From positions 1-51,197 of the forward strand of contig NZ_BBJX01000018.1 of assembly GCF_000739995.1 (NCBI RefSeq): 51,197 bases of DNA, read 5' to 3'. Below, piece after piece: positions 10,199 to 49,726 of the stretch (within the stretch, counting starts at the first letter, position 1; each line of letters starts with the position of its first letter). The notes below the pieces were generated by a model. It saw only the letters and a program-made list of their open reading frames with translations, was not told where the DNA came from and searched no databases. The translations under genes were made by a program, and so were the position numbers. Source of the DNA: Comamonas granuli NBRC 101663. GTDB taxonomy: Bacteria; Pseudomonadota; Gammaproteobacteria; Burkholderiales; Burkholderiaceae_C.

Positions 10199-10912
10199 TC
10201 AGAAAGCGCGCGCCTGGGCGCCAGCCAGGCGCTGCAGCGGCGCGGTGTCCAGCAGCGTCCAGTCCCTGCGCTCACCGCGCAGCCACTGCCGCGCCTGCCA
10301 CTGCGCCAGCAGGCGCGACAGGGTCTCGGGGCGTATGCCCAGGCTGGCGGCCAACTGGCGCTGGCTGCCGGGCAACTCCAGCCGCGGGCCCTGCTGGTCC
10401 GACAGGCGCAGCAGACAGGCCGCGAGCCGCTGCGGCGCCGTGCTCACGGTCAGCCACTCGATCTCGTTCACATAGTGGTAGATGCGCCGGCTGAAGTCCT
10501 CCAGCAGGCGCAGGGCCAGCGCCGGGTGCTGGGCGCAGGCCTGCTGCAGCGCCTGGCGCTCAAGCCGCCAGAGGGTGGCGCGGCCCACCGTACGCGCCTG
10601 CATGGGGTAGCGGCGGTGCGTCATGAACATGGCGGCCTCGGCAATGCACTGGCCGGCCTCGAAGCGATGGAACACGCGCTCGTTGCCCTCGCAGCAATAG
10701 CGGACCACTTCGACCTGCCCGGTCTCGATGAAGAACCAGTGCTGCGCAGGATCGCCCTCGTGGAACAGCACCTCGGCGGCCCGCATGCGCCGGACCTGGG
10801 CCTGGGCGCACAGGCCGTGCAGCGCCTCGGGACCGAGGTCCTGGAGCAGGGGATGGGCGCGCAGCAGGCCCGGCAAAAGCCGGGGTGCGCCCGGTTTGTT
10901 GACAAATGTCAT
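10199..10912 (-). CDS. Crp/Fnr-family transcriptional regulator
   Basis: This 237-residue protein has an N-terminal cyclic-nucleotide-like sensor barrel (about 20-130, with LFHEGDPAQHWFFIETGQVEV). A dimerisation helix follows, then a C-terminal winged helix (GSQRQLAASLGIRPETLSRLLAQW). It lacks the N-terminal cysteine cluster of FNR, so an oxygen-labile [4Fe-4S] centre is unlikely; a DNR/NnrR-type NO or haem sensor is possible. It diverges from the TonB receptor at 10976 across a 63-bp space and is the best candidate local regulator of the chelatase locus. A much longer reading of the same frame (to 14212) is a high-GC artefact; the ATG at 10912 starts the recognisable protein. Confidence 0.88.
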   Translation of the reverse strand: MTFVNKPGAPRLLPGLLRAHPLLQDLGPEALHGLCAQAQVRRMRAAEVLFHEGDPAQHWFFIETGQVEVVRYCCEGNERVFHRFEAGQCIAEAAMFMTHRRYPMQARTVGRATLWRLERQALQQACAQHPALALRLLEDFSRRIYHYVNEIEWLTVSTAPQRLAACLLRLSDQQGPRLELPGSQRQLAASLGIRPETLSRLLAQWQARQWLRGERRDWTLLDTAPLQRLAGAQARAF

Positions 10913-10944
10913 TGCCGGATACGGATGGTTTCCCAGATCATATT

Positions 10945-10963
10945 GCAAATGCGAATGACTACC
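10945..10963 (+). promoter_or_regulatory. Candidate Fur box
   Basis: GCAAATGCGAATGACTACC matches about 12 of 19 positions of the Fur consensus GATAATGATAATCATTATC. It sits 12 bp before the TonB receptor ATG and within the divergent promoter region of the Crp/Fnr gene. It suggests iron-dependent repression of the locus. Confidence 0.5.
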
Positions 10964-10975
10964 AACTAGATTTAC

Positions 10976-13114
10976 ATGATCTCCAACCACTCCCTGACTT
11001 CGTCCGGCTGCGCGCTGCGTGCCACTGCGGGCCTGCTGCTCATGGCGGCCTGGGCGGCCCATGCCCAGGTGCAAGAGGGGGGCAGCCTGCCTTCCGTCAC
11101 CGTGCAGGCGACGCGCGCCAGCGCCGACGTGCCGCTGCGCCCCACCGTGCAGAAGGAGCGCGAACGCCTGGCGCAGGTGCCCGGCGGCACCAACCTGGCC
11201 GAGCCGCAGAAGGAAGCGCGCCTGGCCACGCTGCGCGACGCGCTGGACTACCAGCCCGGCATCGTGCTGCAGGACTTCTTCGGCGGCACCGACCAGCCGC
11301 GCCTGGGCATCCGCGGCTCGGGCATCCAGAGCAACCCGGTGAACCGGGGCGTGCTGCTGCTGCAGGACGGCCTGCCGCTCAACGAGGCCGATGGCTCCTT
11401 CATCATCGGCCTGATCGAGCCGCGCAACGCCGCGCTGGTGAGCGCGCGGCGCGGTGCGAATGCGCTCACACCGGGTGCGACCACGCTGGGCGGCGAGGTG
11501 GATTTTGTTTCGCTCACCGGGGCCGACGAGCGCGGCCGCGTGCGTTTTGAGACCGGCAGCTTCGGCCGCCAGGGCCTGCAGGGCGCCGTCGGCGGCGTGG
11601 GTGAGCGCTTCGACGGCCGGGTGTCGGTCAGCAGCGACCGCTTCGACGGCTACCGCCATCACTCCGCCTCGCAGCGCGACGCACTGCAGGCGAACGTGGG
11701 CTTCCAGGGCGACGGCGGCTTCGCCAACCGCACCTACCTCACCTGGACCGACCTGGCCTTCCAGATCCCGACCGTGGTGCCCAAGGATCGCGTCACGACC
11801 AACCCGCGCGGCGTCATGGGCGACGGCAACACGCCGCAGGACCGACTGCTCAACGTCTACCAGCGCGACCCGCGCCGTGCCGCTACGCAGTTGCGCCTGG
11901 CCAACCGTTCCACCTGGGGCAACGAGGCGCTGCGCCAGGAGGTCGGCGTGTACTGGCAGGACACCGACGACCTGTTCAACGACTCCACCACCCACACCGT
12001 GACGCACAGCCGCACCACGGGCGCGCAGTGGCAGGCCAGCGGCCGCCCGGGCGGCGCATCCGGCGCGCTGGGCTGGCGCACGGCGCTGTCGTGGACGCAC
12101 AGCGCCATGGAGCGCGACCTGTATGCCAACAACCCCGCCAATGGCCAGCGGCTGCAGCGCTTTGGCGCCTACGACCTCGACGCCAGCAACCTGCAGGCGC
12201 TGGCCGCAGCCGACTGGCGCCTTGCGCCCGGCTGGACGCTGCTGGGCAGCCTGCAGTGGAGCCAACTCGCGCGCGACGCCGCAAGCCGCAGCACGGCGGC
12301 GCAACTCGACCAGCAATGGAGCTTCGCCACGCCCAAGATCGGCCTGAACTGGGCCGCCACCCCCAGCACGCGCCTGTGGGCCAACCTCAGCCGCAGCCAG
12401 GAAGCGCCCACGTTCTGGGAAATCGTCAGCGCCACCGTGGCGCCCAACAGCCCGGCCACGGCCAGCGCCGAGCTGGTGCGCCTGAAGATGCAAAGCGCCA
12501 CCACGCTGGAACTCGGCGGTCAGGGCCGCTGGGGCGAGGGCGCGCAGGCCCTGCACTGGACTGCGGCCGTGTACCGCAGCGTGCTGGCCGACGAGCTGAT
12601 CTCCACCACCGACGCCAACGGCATCCGCGTGGGCACCTACAACTACCGGGGCGGCACGCGCCACCAGGGCATCGAGGCGGGCCTCTCGGGCAGCCGCCGG
12701 CTCGGTGCGGGCGCGGTGGACTTCCGCGCCGCCTGGACGTTCAGCGACTTCCGCTTCCGCGGCGGTGAATACGCGGGCAAGCAGATCGCTGGCGTGCCGC
12801 GCCACCTCCTCAGCGCCGAGGCGCTGTACCGCGTGGGCGCCTGGCGCTTCGGCCCCAACCTGCGCTGGATGCCCGTGAGCACGCCCACCGACCACGCGAA
12901 CACCCCGGGCGCCGAGCAGGAGGCCTATGCGCTGCTGGGGCTCAAGCTGGAATGGCGCGAAGGCCCCTGGGCCGTATTCCTGCAGGCCGACAACGTGACC
13001 GACCGGCGCTACGCCAGCAGCTACGCCGTGCGCAACCGCACCACGGCCGCGCAGCCGGGCTACCTGCCGGGCCTGGGCCGCAGCGTCACGGCCGGGCTGA
13101 CGTACCAGTTCTGA
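10976..13114 (+). CDS. TonB-dependent receptor (first of the chelatase locus)
   Basis: This 712-residue outer-membrane receptor has a signal peptide (cleavage near AAHAQ), a TonB box region LPSVTVQATRA, a plug domain and a C-terminal barrel ending TYQF. The plug contains LRDALDYQPGIVLQDFFGG, RLGIRGSGIQSNP and VLLLQDGLPLNEADG. I do not recognise the substrate. It is the first gene after the candidate Fur box and starts a same-strand run with a NitT/TauT-type binding protein, a second receptor and a CobN-like chelatase. A siderophore, haem or other metallated ligand is the reasonable guess. No strong ribosome site is visible before the ATG; the start is set by the signal peptide. Confidence 0.88.
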   Translation: MISNHSLTSSGCALRATAGLLLMAAWAAHAQVQEGGSLPSVTVQATRASADVPLRPTVQKERERLAQVPGGTNLAEPQKEARLATLRDALDYQPGIVLQDFFGGTDQPRLGIRGSGIQSNPVNRGVLLLQDGLPLNEADGSFIIGLIEPRNAALVSARRGANALTPGATTLGGEVDFVSLTGADERGRVRFETGSFGRQGLQGAVGGVGERFDGRVSVSSDRFDGYRHHSASQRDALQANVGFQGDGGFANRTYLTWTDLAFQIPTVVPKDRVTTNPRGVMGDGNTPQDRLLNVYQRDPRRAATQLRLANRSTWGNEALRQEVGVYWQDTDDLFNDSTTHTVTHSRTTGAQWQASGRPGGASGALGWRTALSWTHSAMERDLYANNPANGQRLQRFGAYDLDASNLQALAAADWRLAPGWTLLGSLQWSQLARDAASRSTAAQLDQQWSFATPKIGLNWAATPSTRLWANLSRSQEAPTFWEIVSATVAPNSPATASAELVRLKMQSATTLELGGQGRWGEGAQALHWTAAVYRSVLADELISTTDANGIRVGTYNYRGGTRHQGIEAGLSGSRRLGAGAVDFRAAWTFSDFRFRGGEYAGKQIAGVPRHLLSAEALYRVGAWRFGPNLRWMPVSTPTDHANTPGAEQEAYALLGLKLEWREGPWAVFLQADNVTDRRYASSYAVRNRTTAAQPGYLPGLGRSVTAGLTYQF

Positions 13115-13129
13115 GGTGGGGTGCACACC

Positions 13130-14149
13130 ATGGCCTCCACCCTTGCCCACGCCGTCCGCCCCACGCGCCGCCAGGCCCTGGCGGCCCTGGCCTGCATCGG
13201 CCTGCCTGCCGCCGCACGGGCCGCGCCGCGCCTGCCGCGCATCACGCTGGCGGGGCCGCCCGCCGTCGTCTCGGCGCCGCTGATCCACATGGCCGAGACG
13301 GGGGCACTCAACGGCCTGGCCGAGCGCACCGAATTCACCGCCTGGCGCGACCCCGACCAACTGCGCATGATGGCCCTGGGTGGCAAGGCCGACGTGCTGG
13401 CCATGCCCAGCAACGTGGCGGCCAACCTGTACAACCGGGGCGCGGGTGTGGCGCTGCTCAACATCTCCACCTGGGGCGCGCTCTGGCTCGTCACGCGCGA
13501 CGCGCAGCGCAAGGTGCTGCAGGACTTCAAGGGCGAAGAAATCGCCGTGCCCTTCCGCGGCGACATGCCCGACATCGTGCTGCAGGTGCTCGCTGCCAGG
13601 CAGGGGCTGGACGTGCAGCGCGACTTCCGCATCCGCTACGTGCCCACGCCCATGGAGGCCATGCAGTTGCTCATCACGCGCCGCGTGTCGCACGCGCTGC
13701 TGACCGAGCCGGGCGTCTCGCTGGCCCTGCGCAAGACGCAGTCCTTTCCCGTGGGCCTGATTGCGCCCACGCTGCACCGGGGGGCCGATCTGCAGCAGGA
13801 ATGGGGCCGCCTGTACCAGCGCCCCGCGCGCCTGCCGCAGGCGGGCATCGCCGCCGTGGGCGCCCTGCGCGCGCAGCCCGAGGCGCTGGCCGCCATCACG
13901 CGGGCCTACGCGCAATCGCTCGCCTGGTGCCGCGCCCACCCGCTCGACTGCGGCCGCATGATGGCCCGGCACATCGACCTGCTCACGCCCGAGGCCGTGG
14001 CCGACGCCATCGCCGTGAGCCAGATGGACGCCGTGCCCTTGCCGCAGGCGCGCGAGGAGCTGGAGTTCTTCTTCGGCCAGCTCATGGCGCGCAACCCCGG
14101 CCTGCTCGGGGGCAAGCTGCCCGCCGCCGCGTTCTACACGCCCGGCTGA
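13130..14149 (+). CDS. ABC transporter substrate-binding protein, NitT/TauT (SsuA/ThiY) type
   Basis: This 339-residue protein has an N-terminal TRRQALAALAC segment followed by AAARA, a twin-arginine-like signal peptide. The mature part (RITLAGPPAVVSAPLIHMAETG; LALGGKADVLAMPSNVAANLYN; EEIAVPFRGDMPDIVLQ) has the layout of SsuA/TauA/ThiY-type periplasmic binding proteins. Its cognate permease and ATPase are probably the genes 7 kb downstream, separated from it by the second receptor, the chelatase and the channel genes. The ligand is unknown. GGTGGGG at 13115-13121 provides the ribosome site for ATG 13130, which starts 15 bp after the first receptor ends. Confidence 0.82.
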   Translation: MASTLAHAVRPTRRQALAALACIGLPAAARAAPRLPRITLAGPPAVVSAPLIHMAETGALNGLAERTEFTAWRDPDQLRMMALGGKADVLAMPSNVAANLYNRGAGVALLNISTWGALWLVTRDAQRKVLQDFKGEEIAVPFRGDMPDIVLQVLAARQGLDVQRDFRIRYVPTPMEAMQLLITRRVSHALLTEPGVSLALRKTQSFPVGLIAPTLHRGADLQQEWGRLYQRPARLPQAGIAAVGALRAQPEALAAITRAYAQSLAWCRAHPLDCGRMMARHIDLLTPEAVADAIAVSQMDAVPLPQAREELEFFFGQLMARNPGLLGGKLPAAAFYTPG

Positions 14150-14241
14150 AGCCGCCCGCTGTTTCCCTTTCTTGCATGCATCCCTGGCAGCCGCCGCCAC
14201 CTGGGTCTTCACTGGTTTTTTCGACTCAGGAGTGTTTCACC

Positions 14242-16233
14242 ATGGTTCTTGACGTTTCCCGTTCTCTCTCCCGCAGTGCCCTGGCGCGCCACCCGGTGGC
14301 GCTGGCGGCCCTGCTGGCGCTGGCAAGCGCCGCCCAGGCGCAGACCGCAGCAAGCAGCGATGGCGCCATCACTGTGGCCCAGGCCCAGACGCTGCCCTCG
14401 GTCACCGTCACCGCCACGCTGGCCGAACAGGACGCGCGCACCGCGCCCGCCAGCGTCACCGTGATCGACCGCGAGGAGCTGGCCGCGCGCAACGCCGCCG
14501 ACCTGCTCGATGCCGTGCGCGGCGCGCCCGGCCTCACGCTTTCGCCGCGCCAGGTGGGCGGGCGCAAGACGCTGGCGCTGCGCGGCCTGGAAGGCAAGCA
14601 CACGCTCACCCTCATCGACGGCCGGCGCATCAGCGCCTCGGACGACGTGGTGGGCCACTCCGACTACCAGTATGGCTGGCTGCCCATGTCGGCCATCGAG
14701 CGCATCGAGATCATCCGGGGCCCCATGTCGGCGCTCTACGGCTCCGAGGCGCTGGGCGGCGTGGTCAACATGATCACGCGCCAGCCCAAGGACCGCTGGG
14801 TCGGCTCGGTCGGCATCACGGGCAGCAATCCCACGAGTTCGAGCGAGGGCGAGCCCACGGGCAAGGCCTCGGTGTTCGCCGCCGGGCCGGTGGGCGAGCG
14901 CCTCACGCTGCGCGTGAACGGCGAGGTCTCGCACGCCGCCCCGGTGGCGGACCGCAAGGACCCACGCGTCTCCGAGATCGAGGGCCACCATTCGCAGGCC
15001 GGGGGGCTGAGCGCCAGCTTCGCGCTCACGCCGCAGCAGACGCTGGAGGCCGGCTGGACGGGCAACAACGAGCGCCGCTTCTACGACACCACCTCCACCA
15101 CCAAGGGCGCCTACCGCAGCAGCTACGACATCGACCGCACCCAGGCCCACGTGGGCTGGGAAGGGCGCTTCGACCAGTGGCGCGGCCGTGTGCGCGCCTA
15201 CCGCAGCGAGATCGATATCACCAACACCGCCAGCAACGGCGTGGCGCCCACGCGGCCGCAGAACATGACGGACGACGTGATCGACGGCCACGCCAGCTTC
15301 AAGCTCGGCGGCCACCAGCTCACCGTGGGCGGCGAGTGGCGCGATGAGACCCTGGTCAACGCGGGCCTGAAGAACGGCAGCGACTCGGCCACGCACAAGG
15401 CCTTGTTCGTGCAGGACGAGATCGCCCTGACCCAGACGCTGATGCTCACCGCCGGCCTGCGCGCCGACCACCACCAGCTCTTCGGCAGCGAACTCAGCCC
15501 GCGCGCCTACCTGGTGTGGGAGGCCGGCCCGGCGCTCGTCGTCAAGGGTGGCTTCGGCCATGCGTTCAAGGCGCCCACGCTCAAGCAGATCTCGCCCAAC
15601 TACGTGGGCGCCGAGGGGCCGCACACCTTCGCGGGCAACGGCAACATCCAACCCGAGTCGTCCAACTCCTTCGAGATCGGCGCCGACTGGCAGGCCGCGC
15701 CCGGCTGGACGCTGCGCGCCACGGCCTTCAACACCGAGGTGAAGGACCTCATCACCTACCGCCTGCTGCGCACCGAGGGCGTGCGCCGCTTCTACCAGTA
15801 CGACAACATCAACGCCGCGCGCATCCGGGGCCTGGAGGCGGGCGTGGAATGGGACATCACCCGCGCCTGGAGCTGGAGCAACGACCTCACGCTGCTCAAC
15901 ACGCGCGACAAGACCACCGGCAAGCGCCTGGCCGACCGGCCGTCGAGCAGCCTGACCTCGCGCCTGGAGTGGAAGGACGCCACGGGCTGGAGCGCTCGCC
16001 TGGTGGCCGAGTTCATCGGCAGCCAGACGGCGACCGACGGTAAGGGTCTGCCTTCCTATGCGCTGTGGAGCGCCAGCGTGGGCAAGCAGATCGCGCTGGC
16101 CGACCAGCGCACGCTGGCGCTGCGCGCCGGGCTGGAGAACATCGGCAACGTGAACCTGGCGGAAAAGTCCGCCAGCTTCGGCTACGCCGAGCGGGCCCGC
16201 CGCCTGTTCGTGTCGGCGCGCGTGGATTTTTGA
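14242..16233 (+). CDS. TonB-dependent receptor (second of the chelatase locus), CirA/HmuR-like
   Basis: This 663-residue receptor has a signal peptide (cleavage near AAQAQ) and TonB box LPSVTVTATL. Its plug has TVIDREELAARNAADLLDAVRGAPG, LTLIDGRRIS and RIEIIRGPMSALYGSEALGG. The barrel has a FKAPTLKQISPNY block and NIQPESSNSFEIG, the positions of the FRAP and NPNL boxes common in haem and siderophore receptors. It is shorter than the first receptor and of the class paired with HmuS in Bacteroidetes haem loci. An AGGAG at 14229-14233 sets the ATG. A longer in-frame reading from 12952 is an artefact. Confidence 0.88.
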   Translation: MVLDVSRSLSRSALARHPVALAALLALASAAQAQTAASSDGAITVAQAQTLPSVTVTATLAEQDARTAPASVTVIDREELAARNAADLLDAVRGAPGLTLSPRQVGGRKTLALRGLEGKHTLTLIDGRRISASDDVVGHSDYQYGWLPMSAIERIEIIRGPMSALYGSEALGGVVNMITRQPKDRWVGSVGITGSNPTSSSEGEPTGKASVFAAGPVGERLTLRVNGEVSHAAPVADRKDPRVSEIEGHHSQAGGLSASFALTPQQTLEAGWTGNNERRFYDTTSTTKGAYRSSYDIDRTQAHVGWEGRFDQWRGRVRAYRSEIDITNTASNGVAPTRPQNMTDDVIDGHASFKLGGHQLTVGGEWRDETLVNAGLKNGSDSATHKALFVQDEIALTQTLMLTAGLRADHHQLFGSELSPRAYLVWEAGPALVVKGGFGHAFKAPTLKQISPNYVGAEGPHTFAGNGNIQPESSNSFEIGADWQAAPGWTLRATAFNTEVKDLITYRLLRTEGVRRFYQYDNINAARIRGLEAGVEWDITRAWSWSNDLTLLNTRDKTTGKRLADRPSSSLTSRLEWKDATGWSARLVAEFIGSQTATDGKGLPSYALWSASVGKQIALADQRTLALRAGLENIGNVNLAEKSASFGYAERARRLFVSARVDF

Positions 16234-16335
16234 AGAGGGGAGTGAGTGAAGCGATAGAACCCGTGTGACGAACCACCCCCGGCCTCCTCTCTGGTGGGGA
16301 CGCGAGTGCCGGGGCGTGCCCCACACAATGCCCGA

Positions 16336-16392
16336 GTGCTATCAAATGCATAGCTATTGGCGCTTGTTGAATAAGCGCTAGAGGCCCATTTC
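16336..16392 (-). repeat. Dispersed palindromic repeat, family A copy 3
   Basis: Minus-strand reading is CTCTAGCGCTTATTCAACAA, then GCGCCAATAGCTATGCATTT, then GATAGCA: both arms, with a diverged right arm (GCGCCA). It lies in the 174-bp gap between the second receptor and the CobN-like gene. A further copy lies at the other end of that gene. Confidence 0.75.
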
Positions 16393-16407
16393 ATTCAAAG
16401 AATTCCA

Positions 16408-19400
16408 GTGAATCCCCTGTCCATTCTTCGCCGCTGGCTGGCCCTGTGCCTGCTGGCCTTTCTGCCTGTGCTGCCGGTGGGGGCGGCGCAGGCCGCGTCG
16501 GTGCTGTTCATCGCCACCTCCAACGTGCCGCCGGGCAAGTTCCGCTTGCTGGCCGACATTGCACGCCCGCATGGCATAGCCGTGCAGGTGCGCTACCTGG
16601 GCAAGATCCCGGCCGACGCCGATGCCGGGCTGTTCCAGGGGCAGGACATGGTGTTCTTCGACAGCTACCAGCAGGACGAGGTGCGCCAGCACCTGGCCCG
16701 CGCGCTGCCCGGCCTGCGCGCGCCGCACGCCTGGCTGTACGACGCGCGCCCGGCCTGGGGCGGCGGGGTGGACGAGGCCCTGGGCCGCCGCCTGGCCCAT
16801 TACTACAGCAACGGCGGGCGGCAGAACTTCGAGGGCTTCATGGCCACCGTGGCCGCCCACCTCAAGGGCCAGAATGCCCAGGGCGTGCCCGACCCGGTGA
16901 TCTTCCCCAAGACGGCGATCTACCACCCGCGCGCGCCCGGCCTGGTGTTCGCCGACCCGCTGGCCTACCTGCGCTGGGCGGGGGTCGATCCGGCCGACCC
17001 TTGGCGCCGCCCCGTGGTCGCGCTGGCCGTGCACCAGCAGTACATCGCCTCGGTGCAGGCCGACTACATCGACGACCTGATCACCCGCATCGAGGCCGCA
17101 GGCGCCGTGGCGCTGACCTTCTACAGCCCCATGATGGACGCGGGCGCGTTTGACCGCATGCTGCGCCCCCAGGGCAAGGCGCTGGCCGACGTGCTCATCA
17201 ACACGCAGATCATGCTCATGCCCGAACAGCGCCGCGCCGAGTTCGAGCGCCTGGGCATCCCCGTGCTGCAGGCCATGACCTACCGGCGCGGCGACACGGC
17301 GCACTGGCAGGCCAACCCCCAGGGCGTGCCGCTGATGGACGTGCCCTTCTACCTGGCCCAGGCCGAATACGCGGGCGTGACCGACATCCAGGTGGCCTCG
17401 GCCAGCGGCGCGGGCGACGCGCCCATCGCCACCATTCCCGCGCAGGCCGATGCCGTGGTCGGCAAGGCGCTGCGCCTGGTGGCGCTGCAGCGCAAGCCCA
17501 ACGCCGACAAGCGCCTGTCGGTGTTCTTCTGGAACTACCCGCCGGGCGAGAAGAACCTCTCGGCCTCCTTCCTCAACGTGCCGCGCAGCCTGCAGACCAC
17601 GCTGGCCGCGCTGCGCGCCCAGGGCTACGACACCGAGGTGCCGTCCGAGCCCGAACTCATCGCCAAGCTGCAGCGCTTGCTCGCGCCCGCCTACCGCGAG
17701 GGGGAACTGGAGCCCCTGCTGCGCGACGGCCTGGCCGCCACCGTGCCCGTGGCGCGCTACCGCGCCTGGCTGGCCGCGCTGCCAAAAGCCGTGCAGGACA
17801 AGCTGCGCGAACGCTGGGGCGAGCCCGAGGCCTCCAGCATGGTGCTGCGCCAGCACGGGGCGAAGAAGGAGCCCGTGTTCGTCGTGCCGCGCCTGATGCT
17901 GGGCAAGATCGCCATCCTGCCCCAGCCCCCGCGCGGCGAGAAGTGGGAGCCCAAGGAAAAAGCGCTCTACCACTCCAGCAACGCCTGGCCCTCGCACTAC
18001 TACCTGGCGGCCTACCTGTGGGCGCGCGAGCAGCAGGCCAGCGACGCGCTGGTGCACTTCGGCACGCACGGCAGCCAGGAATGGCTGCCCGGCAAGGAGC
18101 GCGGCCTGTCCGTCACCGACCCCGGCATGCTCGCCGTGGGCGACCTGCCCGTGGCCTACCCCTACATCGCAGACAACATCGGCGAGGCCCAGCAGGCCAA
18201 GCGCCGGGGCCGCGCGGTCATCATCAGCCACCAGACGCCACCCTTCAAGCCCGCCGGGCTGCACCAGGCGCTCACGCAGATGCACGACCTGCTGCACGCC
18301 TGGATGGCGCAGGACGAGGGCGTGGTCAAGCAAAAGCTCCAGGCCGACCTGCTGGCCGCCGCCACCAAGGAGCGCATCGCCCTCGACATGGGCTGGACGC
18401 CGGAGCGCGCGCGCGCCGAGTTCCCCGCCTTTGTCGATGCCCTGCACGCCCAACTGCACGAACTGGCCGAAACCGCCCAGCCCCTGGGCCTGCACACCCT
18501 GGGCCGCGCGCCCGAGGCGCAACACCGCCTGGCCACCGTGCTGCTGATGCTGGGCCGCCCGTTCTGGGAGGCGGCCGCGCTGCACGCGGGCATCCCCGCC
18601 GCCGAGGTGGACGAAGCCCTGCTCGCCGACTACGACCAGCTGCCCGCCACCGCGCCCTACCAGTTGCTGCAACGCCATGTGGTGCAGGGCGAAAGCACCC
18701 AGGGCTTGAGCGCGCCGCTGCGCGAGCAGCTCGACAAGGCCCGCGCCTGGCACGCCGCCATCGGTGCCGACCACGAGCTGCCCGCGCTGCTGAACGTGCT
18801 GACGGGCAAGCACCTGGCCACCTCCTACGGCGGCGACCCCATCAAGAACCCCGACGCCTACCCCACGGGCCGCGACCTCTACGGCTTCGACCCCTCGCGC
18901 GTGCCCACCAAGCAAGCCTGGGCGGCGGGCAAGGAGGCGGCCGAGCAGCTCATCGCCGAGCACCGCCGCCTGACCGGCCAGCCGCCCAAGAAGCTGGCCG
19001 TCTCGCTGTGGTCGGTGGAGACCATGCGCCACCAGGGCCTGCTCGAAGCGCAGGCGCTGTGGCTGCTGGGCACCGAGCCCGTGTGGGACGAGGGCGGCCG
19101 TGTCACGGGCGTCAAGCTCGTGCCGCGCAAGGAACTGGGGCGCGAGCGCGTGGACGTGGTGCTCTCGGCCACCGGCCTGTACCGCGACCACTTCCCCAAC
19201 ACCATGAAGATCCTGGCGCAGGCCGCGCAACTGGCCGCGCAGGCCCAGGGGCCGGGCGAAGAGGCCAACCCCGTGGCGGCCCACACCCGCGCCATCGCCG
19301 CGCGCCTGCGCGCCCAGGGCATGCCGGAGAAGGCCGCGCAGGCGGCGGCGGAGACGCGCATCTACGCCTCCGAGTCGGGCAAGTACGGCACCGGCCTGGA

Positions 19401-20475
19401 CGACGCGGCCCTGGCCACCGACACCTGGAAGGGCAAGGCTGAGGGCGACCGCAAGCTCGCGCAGCTGTACCTCTCGCGCATGCAGTTCGCCTACGGCGCC
19501 GACGAGTCCACCTGGGGCAGCCTGTCCGGCGCGGGGCTCAAGGGCCAGGACGGCCAGCCGCTCAACCTGTATGCCGAGCAACTGCGCGGCACCGAGGGCG
19601 CGGTGCTCTCGCGCAGCTCCAACACCTACGGCATGCTCACCACCGACGACCCGTTCCAGTACCTGGGCGGCATCGGCCTGGCCGTGCGCCACCTGGACGG
19701 CAAGGCGCCGCAGCTCTACATCAGCAACCTGCGCGGCAGCGGAAGCGGGCGCGTGGAAGGCGCGGCGCAGTTCCTGGCCAAGGAGCTGGCCACGCGGCAG
19801 TTCCACCCCGGCTACATCAAAGGGCTGATGGACGAGGGCTACGCGGGCACGCTGCAGGTGCTGGACGCCACCAACAACTTCTGGGGCTGGACGGCGGTGG
19901 CGCGCGAGATCGTGCGCGACGACCAGTGGCAGGAGATGGTCGATGTGTACGTGCGCGACAAGCACCAGTTGGGCCTGAAGAAGTGGTTCGAGGCGCACAA
20001 CCCGCACGCGCTGGCGCAGAACATCGAGCGCATGCTCGAAGCCGCGCGCCAGAGCTACTGGCAGGCCGACGCCGCCACCGTGGCCGAGCTGAAGGACCGC
20101 TGGTGCGACCTGGCCCAGCGCTTTGACGTGCGCACCGACAACGCCGCCTTCGAGCGCTTCGTGGGTGCAGGCCAGGGCACCGCCGGCTTTGGCCTGAACC
20201 TGGGCCATCTGCCTGCCGATGCCGCCGCTGCAGCAGCGCAGAGCGCCGCCGAGCCCCCACCCCCGGCCGAAGCCGCCCCCGCCACACCGCCCCCGCCGCC
20301 GCCCATCAGCGGCATGCGGCTGGAGCAGGTGGCCGACCAGCCAACCGCGCCCGCCGCCCACACCTTGCAGGCGCTGTGGGTGGCCCTGGCGCTGGGCGCC
20401 GTCATGCTCGGGGGCGGCTGGTGGCAGCGCGGCCGCCCATTCAAGGCAAAAGTGCCTCCCGCGCAGCATGGATAA
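16408..20475 (+). CDS. hmuS: Membrane-anchored, periplasmic CobN-like chelatase (HmuS-like)
   Basis: This 1355-residue protein is of the CobN/BchH metal-chelatase superfamily. CobN hallmarks are clear: HFGTHGSQEWLPGKERGLS near residue 550 and YIADNIGEAQQAKRRGRAVI about 35 residues later. Unlike cytoplasmic CobN it begins with a signal peptide (hydrophobic residues 10-28, cleavage near AQAA). It ends with a Pro-rich linker (about 1277-1300) and one transmembrane helix (LWVALALGAVMLGG), so the catalytic body should face the periplasm. No CobS/CobT or ChlI/ChlD AAA+ partner is encoded nearby; a TolQ-like channel and a DUF2149 protein follow instead. That set matches Bacteroidetes HmuS-HmuT-HmuU. 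Start is GTG. The stop codon falls in a repeat. Insertion versus removal of metal cannot be told from sequence. Confidence 0.88.
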   Translation: MNPLSILRRWLALCLLAFLPVLPVGAAQAASVLFIATSNVPPGKFRLLADIARPHGIAVQVRYLGKIPADADAGLFQGQDMVFFDSYQQDEVRQHLARALPGLRAPHAWLYDARPAWGGGVDEALGRRLAHYYSNGGRQNFEGFMATVAAHLKGQNAQGVPDPVIFPKTAIYHPRAPGLVFADPLAYLRWAGVDPADPWRRPVVALAVHQQYIASVQADYIDDLITRIEAAGAVALTFYSPMMDAGAFDRMLRPQGKALADVLINTQIMLMPEQRRAEFERLGIPVLQAMTYRRGDTAHWQANPQGVPLMDVPFYLAQAEYAGVTDIQVASASGAGDAPIATIPAQADAVVGKALRLVALQRKPNADKRLSVFFWNYPPGEKNLSASFLNVPRSLQTTLAALRAQGYDTEVPSEPELIAKLQRLLAPAYREGELEPLLRDGLAATVPVARYRAWLAALPKAVQDKLRERWGEPEASSMVLRQHGAKKEPVFVVPRLMLGKIAILPQPPRGEKWEPKEKALYHSSNAWPSHYYLAAYLWAREQQASDALVHFGTHGSQEWLPGKERGLSVTDPGMLAVGDLPVAYPYIADNIGEAQQAKRRGRAVIISHQTPPFKPAGLHQALTQMHDLLHAWMAQDEGVVKQKLQADLLAAATKERIALDMGWTPERARAEFPAFVDALHAQLHELAETAQPLGLHTLGRAPEAQHRLATVLLMLGRPFWEAAALHAGIPAAEVDEALLADYDQLPATAPYQLLQRHVVQGESTQGLSAPLREQLDKARAWHAAIGADHELPALLNVLTGKHLATSYGGDPIKNPDAYPTGRDLYGFDPSRVPTKQAWAAGKEAAEQLIAEHRRLTGQPPKKLAVSLWSVETMRHQGLLEAQALWLLGTEPVWDEGGRVTGVKLVPRKELGRERVDVVLSATGLYRDHFPNTMKILAQAAQLAAQAQGPGEEANPVAAHTRAIAARLRAQGMPEKAAQAAAETRIYASESGKYGTGLDDAALATDTWKGKAEGDRKLAQLYLSRMQFAYGADESTWGSLSGAGLKGQDGQPLNLYAEQLRGTEGAVLSRSSNTYGMLTTDDPFQYLGGIGLAVRHLDGKAPQLYISNLRGSGSGRVEGAAQFLAKELATRQFHPGYIKGLMDEGYAGTLQVLDATNNFWGWTAVAREIVRDDQWQEMVDVYVRDKHQLGLKKWFEAHNPHALAQNIERMLEAARQSYWQADAATVAELKDRWCDLAQRFDVRTDNAAFERFVGAGQGTAGFGLNLGHLPADAAAAAAQSAAEPPPPAEAAPATPPPPPPISGMRLEQVADQPTAPAAHTLQALWVALALGAVMLGGGWWQRGRPFKAKVPPAQHG

Positions 20476-20506
20476 GCGCTAGCAGCTATCAAAAATATAG
20501 CTGAAC
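20470..20506 (+). repeat. Dispersed palindromic repeat, family A copy 4 (half element)
   Basis: GATAAGCGCTAGCAGCTATC followed by AAAAATATAGC is the right half of the element only. The TAA stop of the CobN-like gene is the TAA of the AAGCGCT arm, so the repeat has replaced the original 3' end of that gene. Confidence 0.75.
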
Positions 20507-20548
20507 AAGACAGCCTACCGCAGTTTTTGACCATTCCTAGGAGTTTTG

Positions 20549-21085
20549 ATGAGCCATTTGCTTGAATCCCTGATGTACCAGGCCAGCCAGGTCTTTCTGT
20601 TTCCCACGCTGCTGGTGATCGCTGTGCTGTTTGTCTATGCCTTCTTCCTGCTCGGCATGTTTGCCATGCAGTGGTGGCAGCGCCGCAAGGGGCAGGGCAG
20701 CCAGCCCACGCGCGGCCACCACCTGCTGGCCTGGGCCAAAGCGCAGCCCGACGCCAGTGCCGACGAGCTGGACGTGAAGGCGCACCAGCTGCTGGAGCTG
20801 CCGCGCATCGCCACGCGCGTGGCGCCCATGCTGGGACTGATCGCCACCATGATCCCCATGGGCCCGGCGCTCAAGGGCTTGTCCGACGGCAACCTGGCCC
20901 AGGTGTCGGACAACCTGGCCGTGGCCTTTGCGGCGGTGATCCTGTCGCTCATCGCCGCCGCCATCACCTTTTGGGTGGTGTCGGTGCAGCGGCGCTGGCT
21001 GGCCGAAGAGCTGGTGTGGCTGCAGCGCCTGGGCGTGCGCACTCCGGCTGCGGGCCACCTGGCCGAAGCGGGGAGTGAAGCATGA
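20549..21085 (+). CDS. MotA/TolQ/ExbB-family proton channel subunit (HmuT-like)
   Basis: This 178-residue inner-membrane protein has three hydrophobic spans (about 15-40, 88-108 and 118-140). It carries the conserved MotA/TolQ/ExbB block RVAPMLGLIATMIPMGPALKGL followed by LAVAFAAVILSLIAAAITFW. Channels of this family pair with an ExbD/TolR-type protein to convert proton flow into mechanical work on an envelope partner. The partner-like gene directly follows with a 4-bp ATGA overlap. The gene starts 73 bp after the CobN-like gene with a perfect AGGAG at 20539-20543. Context suggests it energises the periplasmic chelatase, as HmuT is thought to do for HmuS. Confidence 0.87.
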   Translation: MSHLLESLMYQASQVFLFPTLLVIAVLFVYAFFLLGMFAMQWWQRRKGQGSQPTRGHHLLAWAKAQPDASADELDVKAHQLLELPRIATRVAPMLGLIATMIPMGPALKGLSDGNLAQVSDNLAVAFAAVILSLIAAAITFWVVSVQRRWLAEELVWLQRLGVRTPAAGHLAEAGSEA

Positions 21086-21444
21086 AATTCCTCGACGAAA
21101 CCGAAGCCGACGACCCCATCCTGTCGGTGGTCAACCTCATCGATGTGTTCCTGGTGGTGATTGCGGCGCTGCTCATCACTGTGGCCCAAAACCCGCTGCT
21201 CAGCCCGTTCTCTAAGCAGGACGTCACCGTCATCACCGACGCGGGCAAGCCCACCATGGAAGTCATCCAGAAGCGCGGCGAGAAGATCGAGAAATACAAG
21301 GCCAGCGGCGAGATCGGCGAGGGCGACGGCGAGAAAGCCGGCGTGGCCTACCGCATGAAGGACGGCTCCATGGTCTACGTGCCCGAGGGCGGCGTGGTGG
21401 ACCAGGCCACGGCCCCCGCACCCGGCGGCATGGGGGGGCGCTGA
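21082..21444 (+). CDS. DUF2149 protein, ExbD/TolR-like partner (HmuU-like)
   Basis: This 120-residue protein has one N-terminal transmembrane helix (about 16-34) containing a membrane-embedded Asp (Asp21 in NLIDVFLVVIAALLI). That is the pattern of the proton-binding Asp in ExbD and TolR. A periplasmic region with DVTVITDAGKPTMEVIQKRG and a Gly-rich tail follows. The family is DUF2149, which accompanies CobN-like and TolQ-like genes. It overlaps the channel gene by 4 bp and the permease gene by 1 bp, implying coupled translation. I infer it forms the stator with the preceding protein. Confidence 0.85.
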   Translation: MKFLDETEADDPILSVVNLIDVFLVVIAALLITVAQNPLLSPFSKQDVTVITDAGKPTMEVIQKRGEKIEKYKASGEIGEGDGEKAGVAYRMKDGSMVYVPEGGVVDQATAPAPGGMGGR

Positions 21445-22238
21445 TGCTGCGTTTGCTGGGGCGCGTGCTCGCGGGCCTGCCCGCCTACCTGTGGAGCGGC
21501 TGGGGCGCGGGGGCCAGCCTGCTGTTGCTGCTCGCCGCCTGGGAGGCCGTGGCTGCGCTGTACGACCCGCTGATCCTGCCCGACCCGCGCACCGCCTTCG
21601 CCGCCCTGCTGCTGCAGGTGGAGCAAGGCGCCGCCGGGCCCGCGCTGTGGGCCACGGCGCGGCGTGCGTTCATGGGGCTGGCGCTGGCGCTGGGCGTGGG
21701 CAGCGTGCTGGGGTTGCTGGCGGGGCTGTCCGTCACGGCCTCGGTGCTCGCGCGCCCGCTGGTCACGGTGCTGCTGGGCACGCCGCCCATCGCCTGGCTG
21801 GTGCTGGCCATGCTGTGGTTCGGCATGAGCGACGGCACGCCGGTGTTCACCGTGTTCATCGCCTGCTTCCCCGTGGTGTTCGCCAGCGCGCTGCAGGGCA
21901 CGCGCACGCTCGATTTGCAGTTGCGCGACATGGCGCGCGCCTACCGCCTGCCCATGGGCATGGCGCTGCGCGAGGTGTACGGCCCGCACGTGCTGTCGTA
22001 CCTGTTCCCCGCCTGGGTCACGGCGCTGGGCAGCGCCTGGAAGGTGGCCGTGATGGCCGAGCTGCTGGCCAGCACCGACGGGGTGGGCGCCGCGCTCGCG
22101 GCCAGCCGCTCGCAACTGGACACCGCCACCACGCTGGGCTGGATCTGCGCCGTGGTGGGCTGCCTGCTGGTCGTGGAGTATGGATTTTTGGAACCGCTCA
22201 AGCGCGAAGTGGAGCGCTGGCGGGAGGTACCCCGATGA
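21444..22238 (+). CDS. ABC transporter permease, SsuC/TauC type
   Basis: This 264-residue inner-membrane permease has about six hydrophobic spans and the cytoplasmic EAA-type loop MARAYRLPMGMALREVYGPHVL that docks the ATPase. It belongs to the NitT/TauT branch, matching the binding protein at 13130. Start and stop overlap both neighbours (TGATG with DUF2149, ATGA with the ATPase), so the permease is translated as one unit with the channel and ATPase genes. Confidence 0.9.
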   Translation: MLRLLGRVLAGLPAYLWSGWGAGASLLLLLAAWEAVAALYDPLILPDPRTAFAALLLQVEQGAAGPALWATARRAFMGLALALGVGSVLGLLAGLSVTASVLARPLVTVLLGTPPIAWLVLAMLWFGMSDGTPVFTVFIACFPVVFASALQGTRTLDLQLRDMARAYRLPMGMALREVYGPHVLSYLFPAWVTALGSAWKVAVMAELLASTDGVGAALAASRSQLDTATTLGWICAVVGCLLVVEYGFLEPLKREVERWREVPR

Positions 22239-23101
22239 GCCTTTTTTTGAATGATGTTCGCCACAGCTACGCGTTGACCGAAGTGCTCGGCGGCGTGGGC
22301 CTGGCGCTGGCGCCCGGCGGCGTGCTGGCGTTGGTGGGCCCCTCGGGCTGCGGCAAGACCACGCTGCTGCACCTGTGCGCGGGTCTGCTGGACCTGCAGG
22401 AGGGCCGCCTGGACAACTCCTTCGGCAACCCCGCGCTGATGTTCCAGCAGCCGCGTCTGCTGCCCTGGCAGACCACGATGGATAACATCGCCCTGGGCCT
22501 GCGCGCGCAGGGCATGGCGCGCGCCGCCGCACGCGCGCGCGCCCACGCCATGGGCGCCGTGCTGGGGCTCGATGCCGAAGCCCTGGCCGCCTATCCGCAC
22601 CAGCTCTCGGGCGGTATGCAAAGCCGCGCCGCGCTGGCGCGCGCGCTGGTGCTCGAACCCGACCTGCTGCTGATGGACGAGCCCTTCGCCGCGCTCGACA
22701 TCGGCCTCAAGGCGCAACTGCACCGCCTGTTGCTGCGCCACCAGGCCGAGAAGGGCACGGCCGTGCTGATGATCACGCACGACCTCATGGAGGCCGTGCG
22801 CCTGGCCGATACCGTGCTCGTCATGGCCGCCGGGCCGGGCCGCATCGTGCACTTGCACACGCCCCAGGCCCCCGCGCTGGCACGCACCGATGCCATGGTC
22901 TACCGCGACACCGCCGAGCTGCTGCGCGTGCCCGCCGTGCGCGCCGCCTTTGGGCTGGATGCGCTGGTGGAAGAGGGCACCTGCCCCGGCAGTGAATTCG
23001 CCAACACCCTGCCGCCGCCCGAGGCGCGCGTGCTGCCCCTGCAGCCCGCGCCCCAGCCTCATGCCGCCACCCCCGGCGAGCGGAGGATGCGATGCGGATA
23101 G
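22235..23101 (+). CDS. ABC transporter ATPase, SsuB/TauB type
   Basis: This 288-residue nucleotide-binding subunit has Walker A GPSGCGKTT (about 35-43), Q-loop FQQPRLLPW, signature LSGGM, Walker B LLLMDEPFAALD and H-loop ITHD. It has a roughly 60-residue C-terminal tail rich in Pro and Ala beyond the normal domain end. The ATG at 22235 overlaps the permease stop; its own end overlaps the NnrS start by 10 bp. It should power the permease at 21444 with the binding protein at 13130. Confidence 0.92.
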   Translation: MSLFLNDVRHSYALTEVLGGVGLALAPGGVLALVGPSGCGKTTLLHLCAGLLDLQEGRLDNSFGNPALMFQQPRLLPWQTTMDNIALGLRAQGMARAAARARAHAMGAVLGLDAEALAAYPHQLSGGMQSRAALARALVLEPDLLLMDEPFAALDIGLKAQLHRLLLRHQAEKGTAVLMITHDLMEAVRLADTVLVMAAGPGRIVHLHTPQAPALARTDAMVYRDTAELLRVPAVRAAFGLDALVEEGTCPGSEFANTLPPPEARVLPLQPAPQPHAATPGERRMRCG

Positions 23102-24324
23102 CCGCCCCTGTGATGAACCCGCCCGGCCTGCTGTCGCCCCAGCACCCGGTCTGGATGTGCGCCATGCGCCCGTTCTTCCTGCTCACTATGGGTTCCGCCG
23201 TGCTACTCATCGCGCTGTGGAGCGCCGTGCTGGCGCTGGGCCTGCCGCCGCCCCCCGTGGCGGGTGGCGCGCTGGTGTGGCACGCGCACGAGCTGCTGCT
23301 GGGCTTTGGCCTGGCGGCGGTGGCCGGCTTCGTGCTCACCGCCGTGCCCGAGTTCACCGACACCGCCAGCGCCAGCCCGCGCACCGCGCGCCAGTTGGTG
23401 TTGCTGTGGCTGCTGGGGCGCGCGGGCTTCTGGCTCTCGGGCGTGGCGGGCAGCCCCGCGCTGGTGCTGGCCGCCTTGGCGCACCTGGGCCTGCTCGGCG
23501 GCCTGCTGGCGCTGCTGTGGCCCGCGCTGCGCACCGTGGCCGGGCGGCGCCACCACGCCTTTGGCTGGGCGCTGGTGGGGCTGCTGGTGCTGGTGGCGGG
23601 CTTCTATGGGGATGCGTTGCGCGGTGCCTACCCCATGCGCTGGCTGCTGGCCCTGCTGGGCCTGGTGATGGTGCTCATCATCGTGGCCATGAGCCGCATC
23701 TCCATGCGCATCGTCAACAACGCGATTGACGAAACGGGCGAGGGCCGCGAGCCCTACCTGGCCCGCCCGCCCCGGCGCAACCTGGCCATCTTGTGCATTG
23801 CGCTGTTTACCCTGGCTGAATTTTTGCAGCCCGGTGACGCTACCTCCGGCTGGCTGGCCTGCGCCGCCGCCGCCGCGCTGTGCAACCTGATGGGCGACTG
23901 GCATGTAGGCCGCCCGCTGCTGCGCCGCCTGCCGCTCATGCTGTATGCCGTGTACGCCTGCATGGCGCTGGGCTATGCCTTCATCGGCACGGCCCTGCTG
24001 GCGGGCGGCCCGGGCGCCAGCGCCGGGCGCCACATGCTCACTGTGGGTGCCATCGGGTTGTCGATCTACGCCGTGATCTGCATCGCCGGGCGCGCGCACT
24101 GCGGGCACCCGTCGGACGAGCGGCCCTGGGTGGCGCAGGGCGCGCTGCTCCTCTTCGCCGGGGCCTTGCTGCGTGCGGGCGCGGCGTTTGTGCCGGACGC
24201 GGCTTTGGCGCTGCTGGGCCTGGCTGGGCTGTGCTGGGTGGCGGCGTTCGGGCTGCTGTGCTGGCGCATCGGGCCGGTGCTGTGGCGCGTGCGGCCGGAT
24301 GGGTTGTGGGGGTGCCAGGGGTAG
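23092..24324 (+). CDS. nnrS: NnrS family membrane protein
   Basis: This 410-residue polytopic protein has about twelve hydrophobic segments. NnrS landmarks are present: MRPFFLLTMGSAVL, the His-bearing WHAHELLLGFGLAAVAGFVLTAVP, and RISMRIVNNAI. NnrS proteins are haem- and copper-containing inner-membrane proteins that protect against nitric oxide-derived stress during denitrification. Here the gene is joined to the ABC ATPase by a 10-bp overlap, which ties the locus to anaerobic or nitrosative physiology. An alternative ATG lies at 23113. It is the last gene of the run; a lower-GC island follows. Confidence 0.9.
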   Translation: MRIAAPVMNPPGLLSPQHPVWMCAMRPFFLLTMGSAVLLIALWSAVLALGLPPPPVAGGALVWHAHELLLGFGLAAVAGFVLTAVPEFTDTASASPRTARQLVLLWLLGRAGFWLSGVAGSPALVLAALAHLGLLGGLLALLWPALRTVAGRRHHAFGWALVGLLVLVAGFYGDALRGAYPMRWLLALLGLVMVLIIVAMSRISMRIVNNAIDETGEGREPYLARPPRRNLAILCIALFTLAEFLQPGDATSGWLACAAAAALCNLMGDWHVGRPLLRRLPLMLYAVYACMALGYAFIGTALLAGGPGASAGRHMLTVGAIGLSIYAVICIAGRAHCGHPSDERPWVAQGALLLFAGALLRAGAAFVPDAALALLGLAGLCWVAAFGLLCWRIGPVLWRVRPDGLWGCQG

Positions 24325-24602
24325 GGTTGGGTGATGGAGTGGGCTGTTTTCGACCCTGAGCTGACGGTCGGCCCCCAACTGTAAAGCGGTCAGCTAGTGC
24401 CCAATGATCATCGCATCAAGCTGGCTGGCCGTGCAGCCGGCCGCCACCTTGAGCACAAGCGTGTAGGTTATGGTAGTGGGCACGTCCTAATAGGGGACGG
24501 ACCCAACCCGTCGTTGCACCCGACCCACTACAGCGGGCGGTTGTACTCCAATGTTAGGCTGCACAATCCGGCCGTGTGGTCAACCAACAACCGAGAAGAC
24601 AA
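24325..24602. other. Gene-free junction at the left edge of the low-GC island
   Basis: No supportable gene lies in these 278 bases. A segment near 24344-24399 (CGACCCTGAGCTGACGGTCG onward) and the LHPTHYSG-coding stretch near 24510 resemble non-coding sequences I recall beside gene cassettes in Burkholderiales and Xanthomonas. The latter also contains an attC-like site (listed separately). CCCAACTG occurs both here (about 24374) and after the island gene (26194), which may be remnants of the insertion. Confidence 0.4.
24501..24559 (+). other. attC-like recombination site (tentative)
   Basis: ACCCAAC (24501-24507) fits the integron R'' box RYYYAAC, and GTTAGGC (24553-24559) fits the R' box GTTRRRY. 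The 59-bp spacing is typical of an attC site. The outer boxes pair at five of seven positions; the inner pairing is only partial. No integrase gene is in the window, and no matching site was found after the gene. Confidence 0.35.
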
Positions 24603-26478: not shown

Positions 26479-27237
26479 ATGGCCCTCGCATCCCTGAAAC
26501 GCAGCCTCGCCGCCTGTCTTCTGGCCGGGTTTGCCAGCATGGCCCCGGCGGGTGAAGTCACGGTGTCCGCCGCCGCTAGCCTGACCAATGCCCTCAAGGA
26601 CATTGCCCAGGGCTACGAAGCCGCGCACCCCGGCAGCAAGGTGCTGCTGAACTTCGGCGCGTCCGGCGCCTTGCTGCAGCAGATGGCCAAGGGTGCGCCG
26701 GTGGATGTGTTTGCCTCGGCCGACCAGGAGACCATGGACGCCGCGCAGCAGCAGGGCCTGGTGCGCGCGGCGGATCGGCAGGATTTCGTGCGCAATGCCC
26801 TGGTGGTGATTGCGCCGATGGACGCCAAGGCGCCGCCCGCCGCGCTGAAGGACCTGGCCGCGCCCGGCGTGGCGCGCGTGGCGCTGGCGCTGCCCGCCAG
26901 CGTGCCCGTGGGGCGCTACGCCAAGCAGGCGCTGGAGGCGGCGGGCCTGTGGGGCGCGGTGCAGGCCAAGGCCGTGAACACCACCAACGTGCGCCAGTCG
27001 CTCGACTACGTGGCGCGTGGCGAGGTGGATGCGGGCTTTGTGTACGCCACCGATGCCGCGCTGATGAAGGACAAGGTGAAGACGGCGTTTGCCGTGCCGC
27101 TGGACCGGGCCATCCTCTACCCCATCGCGCGCACCGCCGCGAGCGGCAACGCCACCGAGGCGGCGGCGTTCATCGCCTATGTGCGCTCGCCGGCCGGCCA
27201 GGCCATTCTGGCGCGTTACGGTTTTCTGAAGCCCTGA
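26479..27237 (+). CDS. modA: Molybdate ABC transporter, periplasmic binding protein
   Basis: This 252-residue protein has a signal peptide (cleavage near APAGEV). Mature ModA landmarks are VTVSAAASLTNALKDIAQGYE, VLLNFGASGALLQQMAKGAPVDVFASAD and VNTTNVRQSLDYVARGEVDAGFVYATDA, which supply the oxyanion-binding Ser/Ala/Val/Tyr positions. It captures molybdate (or tungstate) in the periplasm. TGGAG at 26466-26470 supports the ATG. It is first in the order modA-modB-modC-DUF2478-modE. Confidence 0.95.
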   Translation: MALASLKRSLAACLLAGFASMAPAGEVTVSAAASLTNALKDIAQGYEAAHPGSKVLLNFGASGALLQQMAKGAPVDVFASADQETMDAAQQQGLVRAADRQDFVRNALVVIAPMDAKAPPAALKDLAAPGVARVALALPASVPVGRYAKQALEAAGLWGAVQAKAVNTTNVRQSLDYVARGEVDAGFVYATDAALMKDKVKTAFAVPLDRAILYPIARTAASGNATEAAAFIAYVRSPAGQAILARYGFLKP

Positions 27238-27239
27238 GC

Positions 27240-27911: not shown

Positions 27912-27920
27912 GGGGCGGGC

Positions 27921-49452: not shown

Positions 49453-49537
<85 letters not shown>

Positions 49538-49641: not shown

Positions 49642-49726
<85 letters not shown>

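Follow-up and report, generated by a model that had tools for sequence, protein, structure and literature searches.

A Conserved CobN–TolQ–DUF2149 Core and a Separable ABC–NnrS Cassette in a Candidate Iron-Tetrapyrrole Operon of Comamonas granuli

We examined a 51,197-base stretch of Comamonas granuli NBRC 101663 (hereafter the window; contig C17, 69% GC, in a 3.5 Mb genome) that carries an operon of nine plus-strand genes and a divergent Crp/Fnr-type regulator. The operon joins a conserved core, consisting of a TonB receptor, a CobN-like protein, TolQ, and DUF2149, to a separable ATP-binding cassette (ABC) import unit of substrate-binding protein (SBP), permease, and ATPase followed by NnrS. 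With moderate confidence we favor a reading in which the core would carry out O2-independent demetallation of iron tetrapyrroles in the periplasm and the second unit would form a separate import module. The genes are all present as an earlier sequence-only reading had named them, and Pfam and NCBIfam profiles confirm this content (receptors, SBP, CobN-like protein, TolQ, DUF2149, permease and ATPase, NnrS, and divergent regulator). The two TonB receptors reported in that range stand, and a third, ZnuD-like receptor lies just upstream and outside it (8087-10150). The plus-strand genes use a reading frame rich in G and C at third codon positions (high GC3), and the layout is more than chance because the gene order recurs in related genomes.

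A search of genomes for relatives of the CobN-like protein yielded 25 loci, 23 from betaproteobacteria and two placed only as Proteobacteria; L016, L017, and L022 are short contigs. Homologues of TolQ and DUF2149 accompany the CobN-like gene in 23 of the 25; in the remaining two, L017 and L022, the contig ends within the locus. DUF2149 itself was found in 22/300 genomes of the order and 21/369 of the class, the source genome being counted in both, which gave 44 distinct places (24 plus 20 further). We examined 34 of these, and 33 contain a CobN-like frame (window and paralogue included). The consistent CobN–TolQ–DUF2149 association, on which the sequence-only reading had been staked beforehand, therefore holds in both surveys, and the TonB receptor–CobN-like–TolQ–DUF2149 unit is a conserved core. 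A rule that DUF2149 always occurs with CobN has one counterexample, L075, where DUF2149 and TolQ occur without a CobN-like frame within a 20 kb stretch. An extra TonB receptor stands between CobN and TolQ in L008, L009, L014, and L021, and also on the Diaphorobacter plasmid L097 (19624-21744).

The two small partners have the expected traits of an ExbB/ExbD-type pair, namely an intramembrane Asp in the ExbD-like subunit and a channel protein of the TolQ/ExbB family (PF01618). A hydropathy scan finds two hydrophobic segments in TolQ and one in DUF2149. Asn19 and Asp22 of DUF2149 are present in 51/51 aligned rows, and Pro99, Gly102, and Thr106 of TolQ in 57/58. By family knowledge, TolQ and DUF2149 fit an ExbB/ExbD-like motor, through which protons would flow.

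The best PDB sequence match of the CobN-like protein is the haem dechelatase HmuS (9d26). A Foldseek search with its predicted model, which is of moderate quality (predicted local distance difference test score (pLDDT) 72, predicted template modeling (TM) score (pTM) 0.58), places HmuS and Mycobacterium tuberculosis CobN level at the top of the fold list (E 3.2e-57 vs 4.5e-57; TM score ~0.45 vs 0.47), which bears out the class-I chelatase relationship proposed earlier. A Kyte–Doolittle scan identifies hydrophobic segments at residues 4-22 and 1316-1334. The protein would thus be exported and anchored, as hydrophobic ends lead one to expect, in line with the periplasmic anchoring put forward in the sequence-only reading. 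We then compared the residues named for HmuS in PMC12583661, the available part of which describes the haem dechelatase chemistry and reports His538 to be essential. HmuS His538 and Glu577 are retained as H554 and E593 and are invariant in the 21 rows of alignment A2; because they are kept superfamily-wide, they are not diagnostic of HmuS. Asp1208 (D1080), Ser1014, and Ser1199 are retained as well, and Ser1067 is replaced by Thr; the region of Met79, a haem ligand of the HmuS head, falls outside the alignment.

The SBP–permease–ATPase–NnrS unit follows a different distribution. It is present in nine of the 25 related loci: seven have the layout of the window, two of them (L014 and L021) truncated where their contigs stop, and in L013 and L025 it forms an unbroken unit upstream of CobN. 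Among the carriers, Comamonas denitrificans has the core, and the complete locus is present in Acidovorax and Simplicispira. The SBP family was found in 15/300 genomes of the order. The order receptor–SBP–permease–ATPase–NnrS occurs in L054, L057, and L059; L058 and L060 have it with a receptor placed inside. The order Crp–SBP–permease–ATPase–receptor 1 occurs in L061 and L062, where the regulator is divergent from the cassette. DUF2149 was not found in the genomes of L057-L059, L061, and L062; in the L054 genome, a CobN core lies ~14 kb beyond NnrS (L055). SBP and DUF2149 co-occur in 4/299 genomes of the order (G000 left out; ~1 expected, Fisher p 0.011), in none of the four adjacently. The cassette is therefore separable, since it is also found without CobN. 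We rejected its inclusion in the CobN core on these two grounds, the nine loci and its presence without CobN, and the earlier proposal that the ABC importer and NnrS provide the inner-membrane step of the CobN route is not supported.

The cassette also occurs on plasmids, for which we examined 18 of 67 matching records, one of them unannotated. It lies near the anaerobic haem-degradation genes hutW and hutX and near FeoA on a Cereibacter plasmid, before a ChaN-type haem-binding protein in Arcobacter, and with FTR1, imelysin, and ferritin in Nitratiruptor. It adjoins nap genes on Agrobacterium plasmids and lies near norB and NnrU on an Allorhizobium plasmid, and a Diaphorobacter plasmid bears a window-like operon. 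A Crp/Fnr-type regulator stands beside it in several plasmids; some other plasmid cassettes show no iron, haem, or nitrogen-oxide gene link. Fur-like boxes with shuffle p ≤0.02 occur in 10/25 cassette upstream regions (L054, L055, L060, L062, the SBP of L063, L098, L099, L100, L110, and L114); among alphaproteobacterial regions, p 0.05 is reached in 1/8. FNR-like boxes were not borne out as a general mark of the cassette (shuffle p ≤0.05 in 3/25 regions). The SBP has only remote profile matches, 3hn0 and 3uif, and would with its permease and ATPase make a NitT/TauT-type importer; its structure model (pLDDT 54) is too poor for inference of the ligand. A frame beside the Crp–SBP cassette of L061 (7622-8419) reads by eye as a truncated globin.

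Promoters were scored with untrained consensus strings for Fur, FNR, and Zur, the Fur string being that of Escherichia coli. Controls were 238 upstream regions of other frames in the same loci, shuffles kept single-base composition only, and operon starts were set by eye after the promoters had been read. Across 23 operon promoters, the best Fur-like match averages 12.35/19, compared to 9.84 in controls (p 4e-12) and 10.0 in shuffles, and the best FNR-like match averages 7.52/10, compared to 6.61 in controls (p 8e-7); these p values overstate independence because the loci are related, and L030 and L071 are identical in sequence. Outside the clade of the window, 11/13 loci reach a Fur-like shuffle p ≤0.03, with L019 and L066 as the two that do not, or 8/10 when L025, L055, and L073, whose stretches were placed after the box had been seen, are left out. 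Two islands persist in twelve aligned promoters from relatives of the window, an invariant TTGAnAAAnnTCATT (10899-10913 in the window) and AATnCGAA (10948-10955). The FNR-like element overlaps the regulator start codon, so its conservation could be partly coding; yet L012 and L031, in which no homologue of the regulator was found, have FNR matches of 9/10 and 10/10. Because they are enriched in Fur-like and FNR-like matches, the operon promoters point to likely control by iron limitation plus anoxia or nitric oxide (NO).

Taken together, the two modules may serve a denitrifier in a single response to iron limitation combined with anoxia or NO. In the first module (receptor 2, CobN-like protein, TolQ, and DUF2149), receptor 2 would bring into the periplasm a metallo-tetrapyrrole, the likeliest being haem or some other tetrapyrrole of iron. 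The CobN-like protein, anchored there, would bind it in the class-I chelatase cavity, protonate the ring, with His554/Glu593 acting on one side and Asp1080/Asp1081 on the other, and free the metal; we infer removal rather than insertion. TolQ and DUF2149 would feed the proton-motive force to the chelatase, replacing the ATP-driven motors of its cytosolic relatives, and Fe(II) could then enter through FeoB, which the genome encodes. The second module (receptor 1, SBP, permease, ATPase, NnrS, and regulator) would be a separable import system linked to iron control and NO metabolism, with an iron- or haem-derived ligand as the leading guess for its substrate. The genome encodes three NnrS proteins. 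The HmuS match, the retained H554/E593 pair, the conserved core, the Asp22 of DUF2149 found in every row, and the Fur- and FNR-like matches favor the two-module reading, as do the cytochrome d1-domain proteins and FeoB that the genome encodes, and the plasmid cassettes near hutW/hutX and ChaN. So does the failure to find a PF01126 haem oxygenase in the genome, in a search of that family only, a limit that counts the other way. If the reading is right, denitrifiers as well as gut anaerobes remove metal from tetrapyrroles enzymatically, NnrS ties this chemistry to NO physiology, and a better name is needed for many genes called cobaltochelatase CobN that adjoin TolQ and DUF2149. With a residue signature of its own, fixed partners, and promoter signals for iron and anoxia, such a proteobacterial branch would offer a genetically tractable test case.

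Several observations weigh against the two-module reading. HmuS His1209 and Glu1212 correspond to Asp1081 and Gln1084 in the window protein, the same residues as in biosynthetic CobN (9uk9), while Gln1198 is replaced by Ser and Trp1202 by Tyr. The haem ligand of the HmuS head/neck, His254, aligns with Ile268 in our reading of the alignment. The Met-rich insertion of HmuS is missing, as the matched stretches are 155 residues apart here and 315 in HmuS. Membership in HmuS, tested by His1209, Glu1212, His254, and the Met-rich insertion, was rejected, none of the four being found, and the CobN-like protein cannot be equated with HmuS as had been proposed. Because these features are missing and the first two positions are as in CobN, the protein is, judged by its sequence, a class-I chelatase of a sister subfamily rather than HmuS. 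On the regulatory side, the window's own boxes are weak, the Fur-like box being one of 7 such sites (12/19) in 51 kb and the FNR-like box one of 97 (7/10) in the window. In six close relatives (L007, L008, L009, L010, L011, and L021), the highest Fur score coincides with the FNR-like element and not with the second island, so this clade adds little to the case for Fur. The best Zur match is also raised, if less (11.65/23, compared to 10.53 in controls, p 1e-5, and 10.83 in shuffles); in the window promoter it is 12/23 and sits on the FNR-like element. Finally, no receptor scores above the cut-off of any NCBIfam haem-receptor model.

The residue pair at HmuS positions 1209 and 1212 varies across the wider superfamily. 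Among homologues with readable motif columns, 41/57 have D..Q, 7/57 have H..E, and 9/57 have other pairs. Neither type forms a single clade in the tree, where DxxQ requires five changes and HxxE three, and HmuS, CobN, and ChlH lie on long branches. A clean rule by which DxxQ goes with Fur and HxxE with Zur was only partly borne out. Among the seven HxxE loci, a palindromic Zur-like box (17/23) occurs at L078 and a 16/23 Zur match at L096, but L072 has both Fur (15/19) and Zur (16/23) matches, L085 a Fur match (14/19), and L006 neither box; L093 begins where its contig does, and the sequence covered for L084 ends within the locus. The DxxQ locus L079 deviates as well, with a Zur match of 16/23. 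L006 is a second cluster in the C. granuli genome, on contig C34 (4496-17278, minus strand), comprising a receptor, ExbB, ExbD, CobN-like protein, TolQ, and DUF2149, with a His-rich CobW gene ~3 kb beyond. Its CobN paralogue is of the H..E type (DHPFEY) and has the HmuS-type His1209/Glu1212 pair, and neither a Fur nor a Zur box stood out at the cluster. A third CobN type (L077 and L087-L092) stands beside weakly scoring DUF2149 genes; its usual motifs are replaced by NNDAFDY or NNDTFDY and by HLGRHSTYEF or HVGRHSTYEF. A frame near the L072 CobN cluster (17512-17964 of the reverse complement) reads by eye as a truncated globin.

More tentatively, the two-module reading can be sharpened. The window protein may represent a proteobacterial O2-independent iron-tetrapyrrole demetallase in which an Asp-Asp/His site replaces the two histidines of HmuS, powered by TolQ/DUF2149, turned on by iron limitation plus anoxia or NO, and accompanied by a TonB–ABC–NnrS module for uptake that is linked to Fur and NO. 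The superfamily would then be split between DxxQ and HxxE proteins, some of the latter (L078, with its Zur-like box) serving zinc. We consider this fuller version possible but doubtful.

The same evidence bears on other explanations. A periplasmic chelatase could instead remove or swap cobalt in imported corrinoids or porphyrins, and the match of Asp1081 and Gln1084 to cobaltochelatase CobN rather than HmuS would suit it, as would the NCBIfam name cobaltochelatase CobN, assigned above cut-off (1370 vs 1248). We think this unlikely, as the promoter matches favor Fur, no cob biosynthesis gene was noticed beside the locus in the listed frames, and the window contains no cobalamin riboswitch at the Rfam gathering threshold; control by any riboswitch was rejected on the same search. 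That the protein is an ordinary biosynthetic cobaltochelatase misplaced in an uptake operon is hardly credible, despite the family name and the CobS/CobT-like pair elsewhere in the genome: an export signal and C-terminal anchor would separate it from cytosolic CobS/CobT, that pair sits beside genes read by eye as sulfoacetaldehyde metabolism, and the fixed partners are TolQ and DUF2149. A role in B12 synthesis was accordingly rejected on topology (hydrophobic ends) and gene context, the cytosolic CobS/CobT partnership not being found.

A zinc system resembling Pseudomonas aeruginosa PA1921-1925, in which zinc-starved cells use receptor and chelatase to obtain zinc from a ligand that carries it, appears quite improbable. 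Zinc starvation induces PA1922-1925 according to the available parts of PMC4542158 and PMC11761036, a ZnuD-like receptor lies next door, Zur matches are modestly raised, and the DxxQ-type CobN cluster of L013 is followed downstream (16099-23207) by two genes of CobW type and one that reads by eye as ZnuA-like, possibly a mixed iron/zinc locus. Against this, Fur matches are raised more than Zur matches, divergent members of the window's residue type have strong Fur matches (L086, 18/19; L080, 16/19), and the palindromic Zur-like box seen at L078 belongs to the other residue type. It is likewise improbable that the CobN-like protein is a nonenzymatic carrier or release device, with TolQ/DUF2149 driving movements of head and neck by which a metal chelate is stripped off or passed on intact. 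The TolQ/DUF2149 pairing and the loss of several HmuS-specific residues would agree with such a device, but the 21-row alignment shows no variation at the residue that HmuS needs for dechelation.

The closest described systems are the Bacteroidota hmuYRSTUV operon (PMC12583661; see also PMC13227078 on P. gingivalis HmuS) and B. fragilis BtuS1/2 (PMC6460266), which in the available portions of these sources share with the window a TonB receptor, an anchored periplasmic CobN-like protein, a TolQ-type protein, and DUF2149, along with the catalytic His538 and Glu577 and a theme of iron limitation. BtuS has been described as a third type of CobN, one that serves metalloporphyrin salvage (PMC6460266, citing Rodionov 2003; consulted in part). 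From the product order for P. gingivalis in the accessible part of PMC10434189 (HmuY, receptor, CobN, hypothetical, MotA/TolQ/ExbB, DUF2149), TolQ and DUF2149 are HmuU and HmuV and HmuT is the further hypothetical protein; the hmu-like composition claimed earlier is thus correct in substance, but its lettering of TolQ and DUF2149 as T and U is not. Unlike the hmu protein, the window protein is without the Met-rich insertion, His254, His1209, and Glu1212, and no HmuY or HmuT-like gene was recognized in the operon by eye or Pfam. Unlike both systems, it comes from a denitrifying betaproteobacterium, and its operon includes an ABC–NnrS cassette. P. aeruginosa PA1921-1925, likened here by description and not by sequence, combines a proteobacterial TonB receptor, CobN-like, and ExbD-like protein in one operon (PMC4542158, PMC11761036, and PMC8531726, each in part). 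That operon is Zur-controlled, whereas the promoters here favor Fur and FNR matches; in the same portions, PA1922-1925 are zinc-regulated, a cobalt ancestry is speculated, and PA1923 is left unexplained. The window protein shares the fold of class-I chelatases CobN and ChlH and the Asp/Gln pair of CobN, but is predicted to be exported and anchored, and TolQ/DUF2149 adjoin it instead of AAA+ partners. NnrS is a core member of NO-responsive regulons (PMC1274295), and the part of that source available to us mentions neither SBP–permease–ATPase nor CobN with it. Partial texts of other sources touch on a DUF2149–TolQ link (PMC9425974), NnrS under iron limitation in Paracoccus (PMC9409073), and NnrS in N. 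meningitidis (PMC4138514). Among the papers listed by searches of the open-licence PMC literature, as distinct from subscription sources, and judged mostly by their listing, none was recognized that treats regulation by Fur or FNR of CobN–TolQ–DUF2149 operons in Proteobacteria, the DxxQ/HxxE split, or SBP–permease–ATPase–NnrS as one cassette.

Table 1. Features of the operon and its flank, with profile scores and remarks (positions in the window)
Feature	Position	Strand	Evidence or remark
ZnuD-like TonB receptor	8087-10150	+	ZnuD model 657.9 bits, cut-off 950; neighbor upstream of regulator, membership uncertain
Crp/Fnr-type regulator, divergent	10199-10912	-	PF00027 71.7 bits, PF13545 58.7 bits
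Conserved FNR/DNR-like element TTGACAAATGTCATT	10899-10913		Overlaps regulator start codon; 7/10 consensus positions
Fur-like element GCAAATGCGAATGACTACC	10945-10963		12/19 consensus positions; contains second conserved island
TonB-dependent receptor 1, partner of ABC cassette	10976-13114	+	54-65% identical receptor adjoins SBP–permease–ATPase in L061, L062
NitT/TauT-type SBP	13130-14149	+	PF02621 26 bits (at cut-off); profile match 3hn0, E 2.9e-13
TonB-dependent receptor 2, directly before CobN	14242-16233	+	CirA model 315 bits, cut-off 745
CobN-like class-I chelatase, predicted exported and membrane-anchored, DDPFQ type	16408-20475	+	PF02514 975.6 bits; NF004644 1370 bits, cut-off 1248
MotA/TolQ/ExbB-type channel protein	20549-21085	+	PF01618 32.2 bits
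DUF2149, ExbD-like, intramembrane Asp22	21082-21444	+	PF09919 101.6 bits
ABC permease	21444-22238	+	PF00528 50.3 bits
ABC ATPase	22235-23101	+	PF00005 86.3 bits
NnrS	23092-24324	+	PF05940 257.1 bits

The best NCBIfam match of the regulator is FtrB (67 bits, below the cut-off of 211). Directly after NnrS, the plus strand encodes an AAA ATPase with a C-terminal TIR domain (24576-26132; PF13401 and PF13676) whose GC3 is lower (0.66), perhaps an inserted defense gene. It is followed at 26479-28607 by an SBP_bac_11 family protein, modA-like by eye, and an ABC ATPase frame on the same strand, which probably serve molybdate uptake. Two tRNA genes of equal score lie 189 bases apart on the minus strand (49456-49537 and 49645-49726).

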